Shown here: in pieces, positions 33,268-55,500 of the stretch
How the letters are laid out: each line of letters opens with the position of its first letter
Position numbering within the stretch: the stretch's first letter is position 1
NCBI RefSeq assembly: GCF_037975245.1
Contig: NC_092579.1
Location: 15,262,178 to 15,326,177 of the forward strand
Reading direction: 5' to 3'
Source: Apostichopus japonicus
Lineage: Eukaryota; Echinodermata; Holothuroidea; Aspidochirotida; Stichopodidae
Length of the DNA stretch: 64,000 nucleotides
The notes under the pieces: model-generated
Seen by the model: the letters and a program-made list of their open reading frames with translations, nothing else
Database searches by the model: none
What the model was told of the DNA's origin: nothing
Position numbers and translations under genes: made by a program

Positions 33268-35040
33268 CTCTGTCTGGACATCAACCGCAGACATGATGCT
33301 CTGTCTGGGAATCGAACCGGAGACATGGAGTTTGTGTCTCTCCAGTCCAGAGCACTACCAACTGCGCCACTAGAACTGTTGAGAATTAATGCTCGTTTCT
33401 AATATTTAAACTTCAAAGTCCAGAATGGAAGAAGGAAAAGAGAAGAAAATCAAAATGCTCTGTCTGGGGATCGAACCGGAGACATGGAGTTTGTCTGTCT
33501 CTCTGCAGTTCAGAGCACTACCAACTGCGCCACTTGAACTGTTGAGAATTAATGCTCGTTTCTAATATTTAAACTTCAAAGTCCAGAATGGAATAAGTAA
33601 AAGAGCAAAAATATAAAATACTCTGTCTGGGAATCGAACCGGAGACATGGAGTTTGTCTGTGTCTCTCCAGTCCAGAGCACTACCAACTGCGCCACTAGA
33701 ACTGTTGAGAATTAATGCTCGTTTCTAATATTTAAACTTCAAAGTCCAGAATGTAAGAAGGAAAAGAGAAGAAAATCAAAATGCTCTGTCTGGGGATCGA
33801 ACCGGAGACATGGAGTTTGTCTGTGTCTCTCCAGTCCAGAGCACTACCAACTGCGCCACTAGAACTGTTGAGAATTAGTGCTCGTTTCCAATGTTTAAAC
33901 TTCAAAGTCCAGAATGGAATCATGAGTAAAAGAGCAAAAATATAAACTACTCTGTCTGGGGTTCGAACCGGAGACATGGAGTTTGTGTCTCTCCAGTCCA
34001 GAGCACTACCAACTGCGCCACTAGAACTGTTGAGAATTAATGCTCGTTTCTAATATTTAAACTTCAAAGTCCAGAATGGAAGAAGGAAAAGAGAAGAAAA
34101 TCAAAATGCTCTGTCTGGGGATCGAACCGGAGACATGGAGTTTGTCTGTCTCTCTGCAGTTCAGAGCACTACCAACTGCGCCACTTGAACTGTTGAGAAT
34201 TAATGCTCGTTTCTAATATTTAAACTTCAAAGTCCAGAATGGAATCAGTAAAAGAGCAAAACTATAAAATACTCTGTCTGGGGTTCGAACCGGAGACATG
34301 GAGTTTGTCTGTCTCTCCAGTCCAGAGCACTACCAACTGCGCCACTTGAACTGTTGAGAATTAATGCTCGTTTCTAATATTTAAACTTCAAAGTCCAGAA
34401 TGGAATAAGTAAAAGAGCAAAAATATAAAATACTCTGTCTGGGAATCGAACCGGAGACATGGAGTTTGTCTGTGTCTCTCCAGTCCAGAGCACTACCAAC
34501 TGCGCCACTAGAACTGTTGAGAATTAATGCTCGTTTCTAATATTTAAACTTCAAAGTCCAGAATGTAAGAAGGAAAAGAGAAGAAAATCAAAATGCTCTG
34601 TCTGGGGATCGAACCGGAGACATGGAGTTTGTCTGTGTCTCTCCAGTCCAGAGCACTACCAACTGCGCCACTAGAACTGTTGAGAATTAGTGCTCGTTTC
34701 CAATGTTTAAACTTCAAAGTCCAGAATGGAATCATGAGTAAAAGAGCAAAAATATAAACTACTCTGTCTGGGGTTCGAACCGGAGACATGGAGTTTGTCT
34801 GTCTCTCCAGTCCAGAGCACTACCAACTGCGCCACTAGAACTGTTGAGAATTAATGCTCGTTTCTAATATTTAAACTTCAAAGTCCAGAATGGAATCAGT
34901 AAAAGAGCAAAAATATAAAATACTCTGTCTGGGGTTCGAACCGGAGACATTGAGTTTGTCTGTTTCTCCCGTCCAGATCACTACCAACTGCGCCACTAGA
35001 ACTGTTAAGAATTAGTGCTCGTTTCTAATATTTAAACTTC
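33268..35040 (-). repeat. tRNA-like satellite, about 11-12 units of 159-166 bp
   Basis: CTCTGTCTGG starts units at 33268 (partial), 33299, 33458, 33621, 33784, 33950, 34109, 34272, 34433, 34596, 34762 and 34923. On the minus strand each unit carries AGTGGCGCAGTTGGTAGTGC (A-box, D-arm-like) and CCGGTTCGATCCC (B-box). The rest is a tail (TTGAGAATTAATGCTCG when read on plus). D-arm pairing is good, but anticodon and T stems do not fold, so the unit is tRNA-derived rather than a tRNA gene. Units are very similar, indicating recent homogenisation. Confidence 0.9.
33421..34802. repeat. Higher-order repeat, 812-bp period, within the satellite
   Basis: Five-unit blocks recur 812 bp apart: unit starts 33621/34433, 33784/34596 and 33950/34762 pair exactly. 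Variant marks such as the CATGAGTAAAAG insertion occur in both. The 81-residue open frames at 33732-33977 and 34544-34789 are identical, showing recent duplication. Confidence 0.85.
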
Positions 35041-35760
35041 ACAACATTAGGAGGCAAATGCATGCTCTGGTGTTTGAACTCAAGACAAGGAGTTTGTCTC
35101 ATTTTTTTCAGTTTATTGACAATTTCATTGTACAAAACAATAATAAATAAACAAAATTATACAACATAACAACTACGCCACAGTAACTGTTAATTGAGAA
35201 ATGATAGGCGTTTCTAATATTTTAACTGCAAAATGAGGAAAAGAAATAATCAATACATCCTCTGGGAGTTGAATTCTAGACAAAGAGTTTGTCTTACTTT
35301 CTAAGAACATAGCACTAACCACTGTTACTATTTAGAAATAATTATTATTTATTTATTTGATTTGATTTTTTTTTCACGTGCAAATATACAATGCCAAAGG
35401 AAGTCTTCTATAAAGCATACAATAGCTTAACAATGTAGAAGACTCCCTGAATAAAGAAAAGAGATATGATAAGTGATATGATAAGTGTTATTTTCTTTCA
35501 GTTTAATGACAATGTCATTGTACAAAACAGTGATGAATATACAAATTATACTATATATACATATGTACTTGTAGACAACGTTTATATAGCTTGGAAAATA
35601 AAATATAAAAAAAACAAATTAAATGTGATTATTTTTTTTCTGAATAGACACCACACAGTTTTCTTCCTTTAAGTCTATTTACAATTTCACTGAAGAATTG
35701 TTTTTAAATAAATATACAAATTCTACAAAATATACAATATTAACAGCTTGAAAATAACCA
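35041..35760. repeat. Decayed satellite edge and non-LTR 3'-tail pieces
   Basis: Diverged satellite units (near 35060-35110 and 35265-35330) are interrupted by segments such as CAGTTTATTGACAATTTCAT and TTGTACAAAACA. Similar segments recur near 35107, 35497 and 35670. On the minus strand these read TTTGTACAATGAAATTGTCA followed by AATAAA, resembling CR1/L2-type 3' tails. Confidence 0.5.
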
Positions 35761-46525: not shown

Positions 46526-49500
46526 TCATACCCCGGTCGGGGTCACCTGCATCACTTCCTCGATGTGTTCCCGCATCCAGGAGAGAACCTTTTGCACTGT
46601 ACGAGGTAGATGGTCCCTCACTATGTATGGACTGATGACTATGTGGTCAAAGTCCTTGTATGTGGCCCACTGAGCACGGTAGCCCGACGGTCCCTCGCAC
46701 CATCCTCTGTAAGAGGATGAGGGAAGAGGAAAGACAATGGTGAAACGATTTTATCATCCATTAGATGATGGATCTTTACGATGCCGAGACCTGTAAACAT
46801 ATTAAGTAACAAACGCTTTGAATACTGGCAGCTTTTGAGCCCGGACATTGTCTGGGGTAAAGTTCATTCACAGCATCGCGCTTTATTCTAAAATATGCTA
46901 GAAAGATCAACATCTGGTCATTCATCCTCAAACCACGACAAGAATCTTACAGTTATTCTCACAAAACATTTCCCTTCATTTGAGGTTTGTTTCTGTTGGT
47001 GATTGATTAGATTCGCCCTCCTCAATCATGTCTGGGAATATTTTACAGGGTATGAGATTTTAATAGCGTACTAAACTTTTCAGGCTAATAACCATGAACC
47101 TTTGAGAATCAGTGGGAAGATCGATACGTAGTACATGGAGGACTGACTCATGAATTATGCATGGAGGACACAGAAAATTATTTTAGAGTAAAATATGGAC
47201 AATTCTATGTCTACTATCCTATTAAAATCAATCTTTCTTTGATATTGGAGAATAATTTGCTATAACAAAATTAATTCAATGCAGTAAAGTCGAGCGTCAG
47301 CCTCAGGTAATTTCTTAACATAATTTTAAAGCCACACTTAAAGAGAGTGCAGACAATTTCGCAAGAATGTGATTCAAACCAGCAACCTCAATTGGATTGT
47401 CACCCTTGGAATCCCTGGTTCGAATCTTAACAACTTAATACTCAAATTTATTGTTACTTAGTGAATGACATTTACTATGAAAAGAGAGCAATTTTGGGTG
47501 AAGTATTTTCATAGGCAGAGTTGGACATGAGGCAAAGGGAATACAACGGGGTTAGGTTTCTATGTGAATACTGGAGATCTTACGGTCCTCAGTTTCAGTT
47601 GGACACGTGGCAAAGGGAATACAACAGGGTTAGGTTTCTAGGTGAATACTGGAGATCTTACGGTCCTCAGTTTCAGTTGGACACATGGCAAAGGGAATAC
47701 AATGGGGTTAGGTTTCTATGTGAATACTGGAGATCTTACGGTCCTCAGTTTCAGTTGGACACGTGGCAAAGGGAATACAACAGGGTTAGGTTTCTAACTT
47801 TCTATGTGAATACTGGAGTTCTTACGGTCCTCAGTTTCAGTTGGACACATGGCAAAGTTAATACAACAGGGTTACGTTTCTATGTGAATACTGGAGATCT
47901 TACGGTCCTCAGTTTCAGTTGGACACGTGGCAAAGTTAATACAACAGGGTTAGGTTTCTATGTGAATACAACAGGGTTAGGTTTCTATGTGAATACAACA
48001 GGGTTAGGTTTCTATGTGAATACTGGAGATCTTACGGTCCTCAGTTTCACTCACTTTGGTCTATCTTCATCAGCATCTCTGATCCAGAGAATAGACCCTC
48101 CGGGGTATAGCTCTATGTTCATCCTCATCTCAGAGGGAGAGGGCGTAATGATGGACCTGGCTGCTGATAAATCTGAGCCATCAATCTCCTCCGGGTTGTT
48201 GGTACGATGAGCGTCGAGGCTACCGTCCTCCACATTGGAGGCATCTCTCCTATGCTGCTGCTGTTGTTGCTCTTGGATGAGTTTGATGGGAGATCCGAGG
48301 AGCGGTGACTTGACATTTGCGTTAGGTACAAGTTTTGGAAGACCGCAGATTGAGTACCAGCAACCACCGAGGAGAATACGGTACTGGAGAAGGGAAAGAC
48401 GGAGGGAAAAATGTTTCGATGAAGGGGTAAAGAGATGGTAAATATTTTAGTGTTGCAATTTTGTGTTACAATTTTGTCTGTTCGGGAAATACAATTGCTT
48501 CTGTGTACCAAACACTGCTAAACATCTTTCCACTTGTATAGCAAGTAGCTCATTTTGCTTAGCAACTTGTGATGCCATACAGCTATAAATAAAATTAATC
48601 CCCCAAGGATCCCCTCAACCAAAACGAGGCAAATTAATCAAGAACTATATCTTATTGTTTTACATCTATGACATCACACCTGCTTGCTCTTGGTACAAAC
48701 CTTGGTACCTCACATGAACACATCTCGAAGGAGGTAACTGGGAATTTAGTGGAACTCTTTGTACAGGTCAAACTAAAATTAGCCTTGTGAAAGAAATATG
48801 CACTGTAAATTGCCATCTGACCATTAAACTTGAATTAAACAGTAGTAAACATAGATCTTCCTCTCTAATAAGTCGGACACCGACCATAACTTGTGACGAT
48901 TAGATACGTATGCCAACATTTTCATGATTGTTACTTCACTTTTGCTTATTTTCTACTCCTTTTTGTGTTTATTTCAAACTATTACAACAAAATAACTAAT
49001 TTAAAAGAACTAGTAACTTTTTTGAGCGTGTGTGTTTCATATTTTATTATTATTAAATTAAATGAAACAAAGGGCACTAAAACAAACAAGAAGCAGCTGA
49101 CTTGATGAAGACTCACCTTGGGTGTCGGACTGTGCTGCATCACTTCAACAATTTGGTCTTTGAGATCATTGAGTGTCAGAATACTAAGTCTGTCAACGAA
49201 CAAGAAAAAAGAGCCCAATTTATCTCGAAATTCCCTTCCGGCCTGCCGCTGTCTGAAGTTGCATCGAGTGAAAATGGGACACGATCCCTGGTTACAGGGT
49301 ATCCAAGGTAATGTGGGTTCTGATTCCCCCCCACAGCTTAAGAAATGGCTGTATAGGGATCGCCACCAACTAAGGACTAGATAGCTCAGATGGTTGAGCG
49401 CAGGGTTTGTAACCCAGAGGTCACTAGTTTCAATCATGTTCCAGCCATAAATTTCTTTGCTATTTTCCATTCCAAAGGCAAATACATAACAAATGCATAG

Positions 49501-52500: not shown

Positions 52501-55500
52501 TTATGTGGGGTGGGAATTTCACGCAGGAGAAATGTATGATTTTCCTATCTGAAAACGGTCTCCCAAATGGTTAAGAATCCAGAAATTAGCTCAAATGGTA
52601 GTAAACATGATGGTGGATCAACACCTGACATGACGGTAAATTACAAGCCATGGGACTTTCCCCGAGATCTATATCTTGCTGCTTACCGTAGTGATGCAAA
52701 ATAACTGCTGTTCAATTCGATATCACTACCGGGAGAAGGCACTATTCCATATTTCAAGGTTTAGGATACATGCCTGTAATGGTATACTAAGATGTATATA
52801 GTCAAAGTCCTAGCCCAATTTGCTTATTCAAATCTGGGCTAGACACCGGCCAAATGAATCGTTGTTGGTAAGATCAAATTGCTCTGCAGCATCTGAAAGT
52901 GTTGCTTAATCTTAGTATCATCTGAAGTTTACCAACGTCTTCATACTTAAAAGGAATGTCTGCCTCAAACGACTCTGTACTCTGTTAGCAGCATTTGTGG
53001 TATTTTGACTCACTTGAGCAGACCGAACGGTGATGAATAGACGTAGCATTTAATTTCGGGCCATTCTTCCTTCAGCATCATTGACGTCAGTATAGCTGTA
53101 CCAGCACCTAGACTGTGTCCAGTGATGACCACTTCAAAATCCTGCCACAAAAAAAAAAGAGAAAGAAGCAAATAAACATCCAAACAAGAAATCAAATTAA
53201 TAAAAGCAAAACAAGAACACAGAGTATATCGTTGCAGCAAGCAGCAGAGTAAGATTGAGCACTTTAAAGGATAAGTGCCTGTTTCATTTGTATTATTAGA
53301 ATTGTCCAATGAACATTATAACTTTCTATTTTCAAAGCATTCTGCATCACTAGCTAAATGAGCTGGATCCTGATAGCATGTTTCCTTGCAAGGAATCTGG
53401 AATGTGGTGTGATGTTATTCAATCAACCACACCCCCAGAGTAGTATTCCCCCAAAAAACCGAACATAAATTTACGTAGAAAAACAAAACTTTTGATATTT
53501 CTCTTGTCAATCTCAATCCAACTTTGGCTACCAGAGTCTTTTCTCAACCTAAATTTGAGCTTGTACCATCACAACGTTTGGTGTTCTCATTTAACATTTT
53601 GTCACGCATGAAAAACACATCCAAACACATTCAAACGCATCGAAACACAAAAGAGTCTGTAGACAAAAATAAAACCCTTTTAAAAAGAGAAGGTAAGATA
53701 TAATCAATGTGATTCCACTCTTGCAAATATACTTACTGGTTCTATTCTCTTTGCTTCTTCTAATAGCTGCAATTCCTTGATTTTATTGTGCACAAACTTG
53801 GCAGTGTTTGCCATACCCCTATGTGCATATATGTCTGTTCTGCCAGTAATATCTAATCGCTCTGCCTCTGCTGTTACGTCTGTTAAGGCATCCTGTTGTG
53901 AGAGGGTACAAATGAAAATGAAAAAAAAATCTTTTGAAACGGAAATCCTCGACTCATCCTAGCAGAGAAATTTTAGAAATTTAAAGACTCCATGCAGAAT
54001 ATTTTAGGTGTTGTCAATTGGTACATTATTGTCCTATGCAAAATTTAAAAATTCAATTTTGGATTGCCTTTCTTTGGCATTCATAGTTATTCATTTTTAA
54101 GGCAAATCTGATGATGGCATTGGCTCTTCAAACCAGACCCAGTTGATCTATTTGTTTTAATAAATCTATAAGGCTATCAAATTATGTTCTTTAGCTTGTT
54201 ATAGATCACAAGTCACTCCCAATAGCACTCGACACCCTTTACCATTGACATCTTGTTAAGCATTACAAATATCTTGTTTGTGCTTACACCCTGTCACTAT
54301 AAGACAAGGGAGGTAATGTGACAACAATAGCCTATTGTGTTTGACATTGGGGTATTGGATTGACTTACCTTCAGGGACAGACTTCCTCGTATTACTACAA
54401 CAATAGTCTATCGTGTTTGATATTGGGGTAGTGGATCGACTTACCTTCAGGGACAAACTTCCTTGTATTACTACAACAATAGTCTATTGTGTTTGATATT
54501 TGAGTAGTGGATCAACTTACCTTCAGGGACAAACTTCCTTGTATTACTACAACAATAGTCTATTGTGTTTGTAGTTGGGGTAGTGGATCGACTTACCTTC
54601 AGGGACAAACTTCCTTGTATTACTACAACAATAGTCTATTGTGTTTGATATTTGAGTAGTGGATCAACTTACCTTCAGGGACAAACTTCCTTGTATTACT
54701 ACAACAATAGTCTATTGTGTTTGTAGTTGGGGTAGTGGATCAACTTACCTTCAGGGACAGACTTCCTTGTATTACTACAACAATAGTCTATTGTGTTTGA
54801 TATTGGGGTAGTGGATTGACTTACCTTCAGGGACAGACTTCCCCGTATTGCTACAACAATAGTCTTCCTCTCTCGATCAATAACGACCATAAACGGAATC
54901 TCAAATATCTAAGGAAAAGAGAAACAAAAAGTTAAAAAAAAACCTAACCTTAAGTTTGCTGTGGTGATTAAAAACAAGCTTACTTTGACAGAGCAAATTT
55001 ATTATTGGGAGGATTGGGAATTTAACCAGGGACTTCAATTGGACCTCACAGGTCCTATGTTCTCACTACTGAGCTACAGCTAATGTCAACCCCTATTTTA
55101 CAATTTATTGACTGAGGGTGCCAGTCTGGTGCACATCCTTGTAACCAGGGATCTCTCCGGGCTTTTAATTGAAAACGACCTAGAGAGCACCAGAGAATTA
55201 ATTCATATCTTATTTCGTTAATAATGAGAGGTGAAGCAAAATGACCGATATTTAAATGTTGAATTATCACAGGAAAACGGTATGAGAGTGAAACAAACCA
55301 ACTCACTCGAATGGATTCAACAATATAGTAAAATATGAAGTTACGTAGTTTTCTCCCAAATTTCTGGTCAGTATACTGTTGTGGATATTTTTCTTTATGT
55401 ATTATACCATTCATAGTCCACCACTATTTTCCTTCTTTCACTTTATAAAGGTGTGTTGGGGAGGGTGGGAGGGGGGGGGGTTGGGTAGGGGCACTGAAGG

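Follow-up and report, generated by a model that had tools for sequence, protein, structure and literature searches.

The DAGLB gene of the holothurian Apostichopus japonicus contains a minisatellite that spans the boundary between exon 6 and intron 6 and repeats the exon's 5' splice site seven times. We are confident, short of certainty, that this array grew between two 10-bp direct repeats and is removed together with intron 6. It lies in a stretch of 64,000 nucleotides of contig NC_092579.1 (hereafter the window), for which a first-pass annotation had proposed that the repeated exon ends could be spliced in as mini-exons and that the repeated donors compete. Our analysis confirms the array. 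At the level of sequence, the mini-exon reading fails the tests applied to it, and the reading of competing donors stands as a putative one, with precedent in other genes.

The gene is encoded on the minus strand by a 12-exon chain running from 59187 to 46526, whose 11 introns are all GT-AG (the shortest is 145 nt). Translated, the chain is identical over 691 amino acids to P0001, the NCBI A. japonicus protein for DAGL-beta (sn-1-specific diacylglycerol lipase), which was also the best match (DAGL-beta-like) when homologues were searched with the hand-joined protein. The exact match points to A. japonicus, or something extremely close to it, as the source of the window. A Lipase_3 domain is present (Pfam PF01764, 61.6 bits) and includes the catalytic GHSLGAG, encoded in exon 8. 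Exon 6 (54908-54825, minus; 84 nt) encodes IFEIPFMVVIDRERKTIVVAIRGSLSLK in the chain that reproduces P0001. It is followed by the 932-nt intron 6 (53893..54824, minus), which holds all of the array except the exon 6 end, and by exon 7 (53737..53892, minus; DALTDVTAEAERL...). In the annotated P0001 protein, donor 1 (54825) is joined directly to exon 7 (53892). The same single-copy join is found in P0002, an A. japonicus annotation from a separate 58,339-bp contig, and P0003, a 61% identical protein of 689 residues encoded by a 2,793-base contig, is likewise single-copy in the repeat region.

TRF places a single array on the minus strand at 54321..54865, with a period of 76, 7.2 copies, 93% matches and a score of 918; seven 76-bp copies at 93% leave chance no rival explanation. 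Each 76-nt unit combines a 37-nt spacer (GTAAGT...AATAG) with a 39-nt copy (13 codons) of the exon 6 end. On this strand DAGLB has seven AAG/GTAAGT donors spaced exactly 76 bp apart. Across the full 64 kb, perfect [AC]AG/GTAAGT strings occur once on the plus strand and eight times on the minus strand, and seven of those eight are these donors. The first unit takes in the last 39 nt of exon 6 (54863-54825) and the native donor, donor 1 (first G of GTAAGT at 54824), which is the one used in the annotated protein. After spacer 1 (54788..54824; 37 nt, GTAAGT...AATAG) come mini-exon copies 1 to 5, at 54749..54787, 54673..54711, 54597..54635, 54521..54559 and 54445..54483, each ending at a donor (donors 2 to 6, at 54748, 54672, 54596, 54520 and 54444, respectively). 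Copy 6 (54369..54407) ends at donor 7 (54368), and spacer 7 (54332..54368) is the last full spacer. All of these features are on the minus strand, and all six downstream donors are intact (AAG/GTAAGT). Complete in-frame copies of the 39 nt number six against seven donors, since beyond GCTATTGTTGT the seventh spacer gives way to unique intron sequence. The translations are TIVVAIRGSLSLK for exon 6, TIVVVIQGSLSLK for five of the six copies and TIVVVIRGSLSLK for the last, which retains the exon 6 Arg.

Most of what the first-pass annotation had read from the letters agrees with this anatomy. The assignment to DAGLB is borne out by the Lipase_3 domain with GHSLGAG and by the exact full-length match to P0001, and the join of 54825 to 53892 is correct, as the 12-exon chain reproduces that protein. 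TRF and the minus-strand donor positions confirm the seven donors exactly 76 bp apart. The unit is also as described (39 nt, 13 codons, frame kept, plus 37 nt from GTAAGT to AATAG), except that one of the seven spacers ends in GATAG. The donor coordinates of 54363-54743 are consistent with ours, since they give the final base of each GTAAGT, from donor 7 to donor 2. Elsewhere in the window the 76-bp unit was not found: matches were confined to the array, 15-base inverted self-matches inside it and three 11-base matches (E 0.81). A search of viral_contigs for exact matches to its core pattern gave none, though such a collection has little power where an animal intron is concerned.

The edges of the array give clues to its origin. 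The 10-bp sequence CTATTGTTGT is present at both, once in exon 6 (54862-54853) and once in the intron at the array end (54321..54330, minus), 532 bp or 7 x 76 bp apart; ACTATTGTTGT opens the array on the exon 6 side and GCTATTGTTGT closes it on the intron side. Two such repeats 76 bp apart would yield exactly this unit and are its probable source, the alternative being that the intronic one is a leftover partial copy. Judging from this anatomy, the minisatellite would have arisen across the exon 6/intron 6 boundary when slippage or unequal exchange between the exonic and the intronic CTATTGTTGT duplicated the 76-bp segment between them. Further rounds, including the duplication of a 152-bp dimer, would then have brought the number of donors to seven. 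There are no differences between units 3 and 5 and one in 76 positions between units 2 and 4; unit 1 most resembles unit 6 (3/76 positions differ). The dimer of units 2-3 differs from that of units 4-5 by a single mismatch in 152, and the dimer duplication would therefore be late. This near-identity suggests that the copy number is probably unstable.

It also bears on the possibility that the copy number owes something to misassembly, with a true array that is shorter or longer. Spacers 3 and 5 are identical, as are mini-exons 2-5, and a pattern of this kind, with dimers 2-3 and 4-5 differing at 1/152, is easily mis-assembled. Against this, thirteen variable columns distinguish the outer units and the 76-bp register is strict, so several copies must exist. 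We regard an artefact of this kind as unlikely; the middle units are where an assembly could err.

Under the preferred reading of a boundary-spanning minisatellite lost with its intron, donor 1 (54825) would be joined to exon 7 (53892) in the RNA as it is in the annotated protein. The acceptor scores given below suggest that the six 39-nt copies would be passive because they are without working acceptors. Donors 2-7 would act as competitors in the choice of a 5' splice site, a choice in which exon definition or 5'-to-3' scanning would favour donor 1. The donors themselves give little to choose between. All seven said to compete after this one exon are indeed present, locally near-identical and all AAG/GTAAGT. 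With an approximate donor matrix all of them score 11.9, the second-highest value among the gene's 777 GTs. The top place goes to the exon 10 donor (49117, AAG/GTGAGT, 12.3), in part because of the background assumed in the matrix, and donor 1 is second highest of the gene's 11 donors. What sets donor 1 apart is its position, not its donor sequence or its predicted local pairing. Accessibility was considered as a discriminator and rejected: all seven donors are predicted to be paired for the most part, with P unpaired of 0.005-0.058 (region median 0.010) and the highest value at donor 7.

Exon 6 measures 84 nt with donor 1 and 160-540 nt with donors 2-7. Use of donor 2 leads to a premature stop at residue 78, and use of donors 3-7 to one at residue 70, both counted from the start of exon 6. 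As these stops all precede the GHSLGAG of exon 8, the downstream donors provide no backup if donor 1 is lost, and the transcripts that they produce would be truncated and probably targeted by NMD. In vitro, competition favours the donor nearest the acceptor, which would argue for donor 7 and against a first-donor reading.

The donors could also have been put to use, as a putative dosage rheostat in which donors 2-7 divert splicing to premature-stop, NMD-degraded transcripts and the copy number sets DAGLB output. Such a role would fit seven donors that are outranked by the exon 10 donor only (by the donor matrix) and a gene in which every wrong donor choice ends in a premature stop. It would also parallel human CBS, where more copies of a 31-bp repeat are stated in a review to lower CBS activity (PMC5188458). 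The closest analogue, F7, points the other way, as the review that describes it has the first donor alone in normal use (PMC6627357). On balance a rheostat seems to us quite improbable.

For the copies to serve as functional in-frame mini-exons, adding 13-residue TIVVVI(Q/R)GSLSLK inserts to the lipase domain, their AATAG ends would have to act as acceptors. Several properties of the copies favour this. Six frame-keeping 39-nt copies are present, as first proposed, each with 13 open codons between an AG and a perfect donor, and any single one can be added without a frameshift or a stop. The introns leading to copies 2-6 would have workable lengths of 113-417 nt, and a branch-like yTnAy lies upstream of three of the six copies (9/11 for real acceptors). 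The exonic half of the unit is also less variable than the spacer half (4/39 vs. 9/37 variable columns, mean pairwise difference 0.042 vs. 0.113), a difference that is not significant (Fisher p = 0.13). The lower exonic variability is suggestive of selection on the coding sequence of the copies, and it would also follow if the copies exchanged sequence with exon 6; two of the four variable exonic columns change the amino acid, which counts against mini-exons.

Acceptor strength argues against the mini-exons. Two matrices, both approximate, were used for scoring: a generic 3'-splice-site matrix, and one built from the gene's own 11 acceptors. With the generic matrix the six AATAG/GATAG copy acceptors score -2.8 to -4.7 bits and the gene's 11 real acceptors 7.2 to 13.9. 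With the own-gene matrix the ranges are -3.6 to -7.0 and 5.0 to 13.8 (leave-one-out), respectively. The decoys comprised all other AGs on the sense strand of the gene, exonic ones included (n = 743). Those outscoring a given copy number 383-498 of the 743 with the generic matrix and 323-512 with the own matrix, placing the copies near the median of the gene's other AGs. In the first acceptor scan, 23 of 695 decoys (generic matrix) and 85 (own-gene matrix) reached the weakest real acceptor; these 695 included two real acceptors (57045 and 51608), and the repeat scan counts all 11 as real. The seventh AG of the array (54331) starts no full copy and is excluded from the comparison of real, copy and decoy AGs at n = 743; it scored -1.0 (generic) and -10.4 (own) in the first scan. 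Just past the 3' edge of the array, two acceptor-like AGs with pyrimidine tracts were seen at 54296 and 54290 (minus), with generic scores of 8.7 and 7.8, the strongest of the unused AGs of intron 6 by that score.

Other properties of the RNA point in the same direction as the scores. The AATAG ends have no pyrimidine tract, with 7-8 pyrimidines among the 16 positions from -20 to -5, compared with 11-15 for the real acceptors. In a local 53-nt fold the acceptor AG falls within a predicted stem in all six copies, although the end of exon 6 folds alike, and inclusion of copy 1 would require an intron of only 37 nt.

The protein is no more favourable. Comparisons with homologues rest on the best 120 of 387 found. 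In all 120 of these, the spacing RG[STC]-x-[ST]-x-x-[DEN]-x-x-[TAS]-D is kept, and the Arg of the RGS/T motif, a motif expected to help form the oxyanion hole in class-3 lipases, is likewise R in 120 of the 120 listed. It is replaced by Q in five of the six copies. Two residues before it, all six copies have V, where the 120 listed homologues (of 387) show A in 110 cases, S in 9 and T in 1. The 13-residue duplication occurs in none of the 120 listed of 387. A loose motif scan gave a second match in one of the 120 (P0072), which lies elsewhere in the protein and is no copy of the repeat segment. The predicted model of P0001 assigns the copied residues 368-380 to a strand (368-373) and then a loop before a helix (379-384), with a mean pLDDT of 59 overall, ~94 for residues 361-370 and 72 for residues 371-380; an insert would put a second strand at residues 368-380. 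For rare isoforms the collection has little power: the clusters of P0001 and P0002 have one member each, and the 120 homologues listed (of 387) include no additional named A. japonicus DAGL-beta entry.

Two parts of the original proposal are not supported by these comparisons: AATAG as an acceptor, given the missing pyrimidine tract, the scores of -2.8 to -4.7 and the AG in a predicted stem, and the repeated 13-residue inserts in the lipase domain, given the loss of an invariant Arg in five of six copies and the absence of any duplication among the 120 homologues. By the score test no copy has a usable acceptor, and the copies do not keep the parental coding sense. Taking the strength of the acceptors and the intron size together with the local fold, the conservation of the protein and the homologues, we reject mini-exon splicing as the main reading and consider functional mini-exons highly improbable; rare inclusion of a copy may occur.

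The predicted fold of the 588-nt stretch is more stable than those of its shuffles (z -3.05; one shuffle in 100 was as stable), but repeating a hairpin-forming unit in tandem would have this effect without any function. The exon 6 acceptor TTAGATATTTGAG (54912-54900) could base-pair in the pre-mRNA with spacers 3 and 5 (54644-54656 and 54492-54504), matching at 12 of 13 positions. For this one 13-mer, 5 of 1000 shuffles of intron 6 reach this level of pairing, and with 40 13-mers tried, 2 of 60 shuffles do; the shuffles kept base composition only. These statistics are too weak to build on.

Other repeats were observed in the window. A second DAGLB minisatellite occupies 47519-48048 (minus), with a 78-bp unit (TRF gives 5.7 copies at 47519-47969), unit starts at 48048, 47916, 47838, 47752, 47674 and 47596, and a 27-bp array at 47938-48023 within its region. 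It starts exactly at +7 of intron 11, right after the exon 11 donor GTGAGT, and 2 of the 11 DAGLB introns therefore begin with a minisatellite. Intron 9 of the gene contains a tRNA-like match on the plus strand at 49375-49447 (Rfam RF00005, 35 bits), perhaps a SINE or a tRNA pseudogene. A 163-bp unit is repeated in 10.7 tandem copies at 33299-35041, and a stretch resembling a tRNA T-arm/B box was noticed in it by eye; neither ARAGORN (bacterial code) nor Rfam at the gathering threshold reported a tRNA there.

The exon 6 array amounts to a natural experiment in which the spliceosome chooses one of seven 5' splice sites of identical -3..+6 sequence. The choice is made in an invertebrate, among near-identical flanks and in fixed 76-nt steps (exon lengths of 84, 160, ... 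540 nt). Use of donor 1 alone would carry over to echinoderms the first-donor rule that has been reported for human F7; use of downstream donors would make the locus a case of a minisatellite tuning gene output. The array is also an example of how such a minisatellite could begin, from a short direct repeat that lies across an exon boundary. No report of this DAGLB array was found in the literature searched, and three known systems offer comparisons.

The AGGT tandem-duplication model of intron gain, and the fission-yeast arrays of 24-bp AGGT units in which introns form across several copies (PMC4974935, as described there), resemble DAGLB in that the tandem copies contain AG/GT. In that model an exonic segment gives rise to a new intron, whereas in DAGLB a segment straddling a boundary seems to have been copied, enlarging an existing intron. 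Of the 76 nt of the DAGLB unit, 37 lie downstream of donor 1, and beyond the 3' edge of the array come 428 nt of intron 6 sequence that is unique; this intronic half and the unique flank speak against AGGT intron gain. Closer in position is the 31-bp VNTR of CBS, c.1444_1467+7(16_21), which is reported at the exon 13/intron 13 boundary with 16-21 copies between people (PMC2630376, PMC5188458) and is described as non-coding (PMC5188458). Like it, the DAGLB repeat spans an exon/intron boundary; going by its name, the CBS unit has 24 exonic and 7 intronic nt, and the intronic part of the DAGLB unit is longer, at 37 nt.

The nearest parallel is intron 7 of F7, the human gene for coagulation factor VII, described in a review as carrying a variable number of 37-bp repeats, the first of which holds the native 5' splice site and is followed by highly homologous copies (PMC6627357). 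According to the same source, the most upstream donor alone is used normally, and mutation of the native donor has been reported to cause exon skipping and use of downstream cryptic donors (PMC6627357). In DAGLB, too, the native donor belongs to the first repeat, and near-identical donors follow downstream. The DAGLB unit differs in length (76 bp vs. 37 bp), and the 39 frame-keeping coding nt that it carries after an AG may be a second difference. By its anatomy, the DAGLB array would work most like that of F7, and we class it with F7 on that basis.
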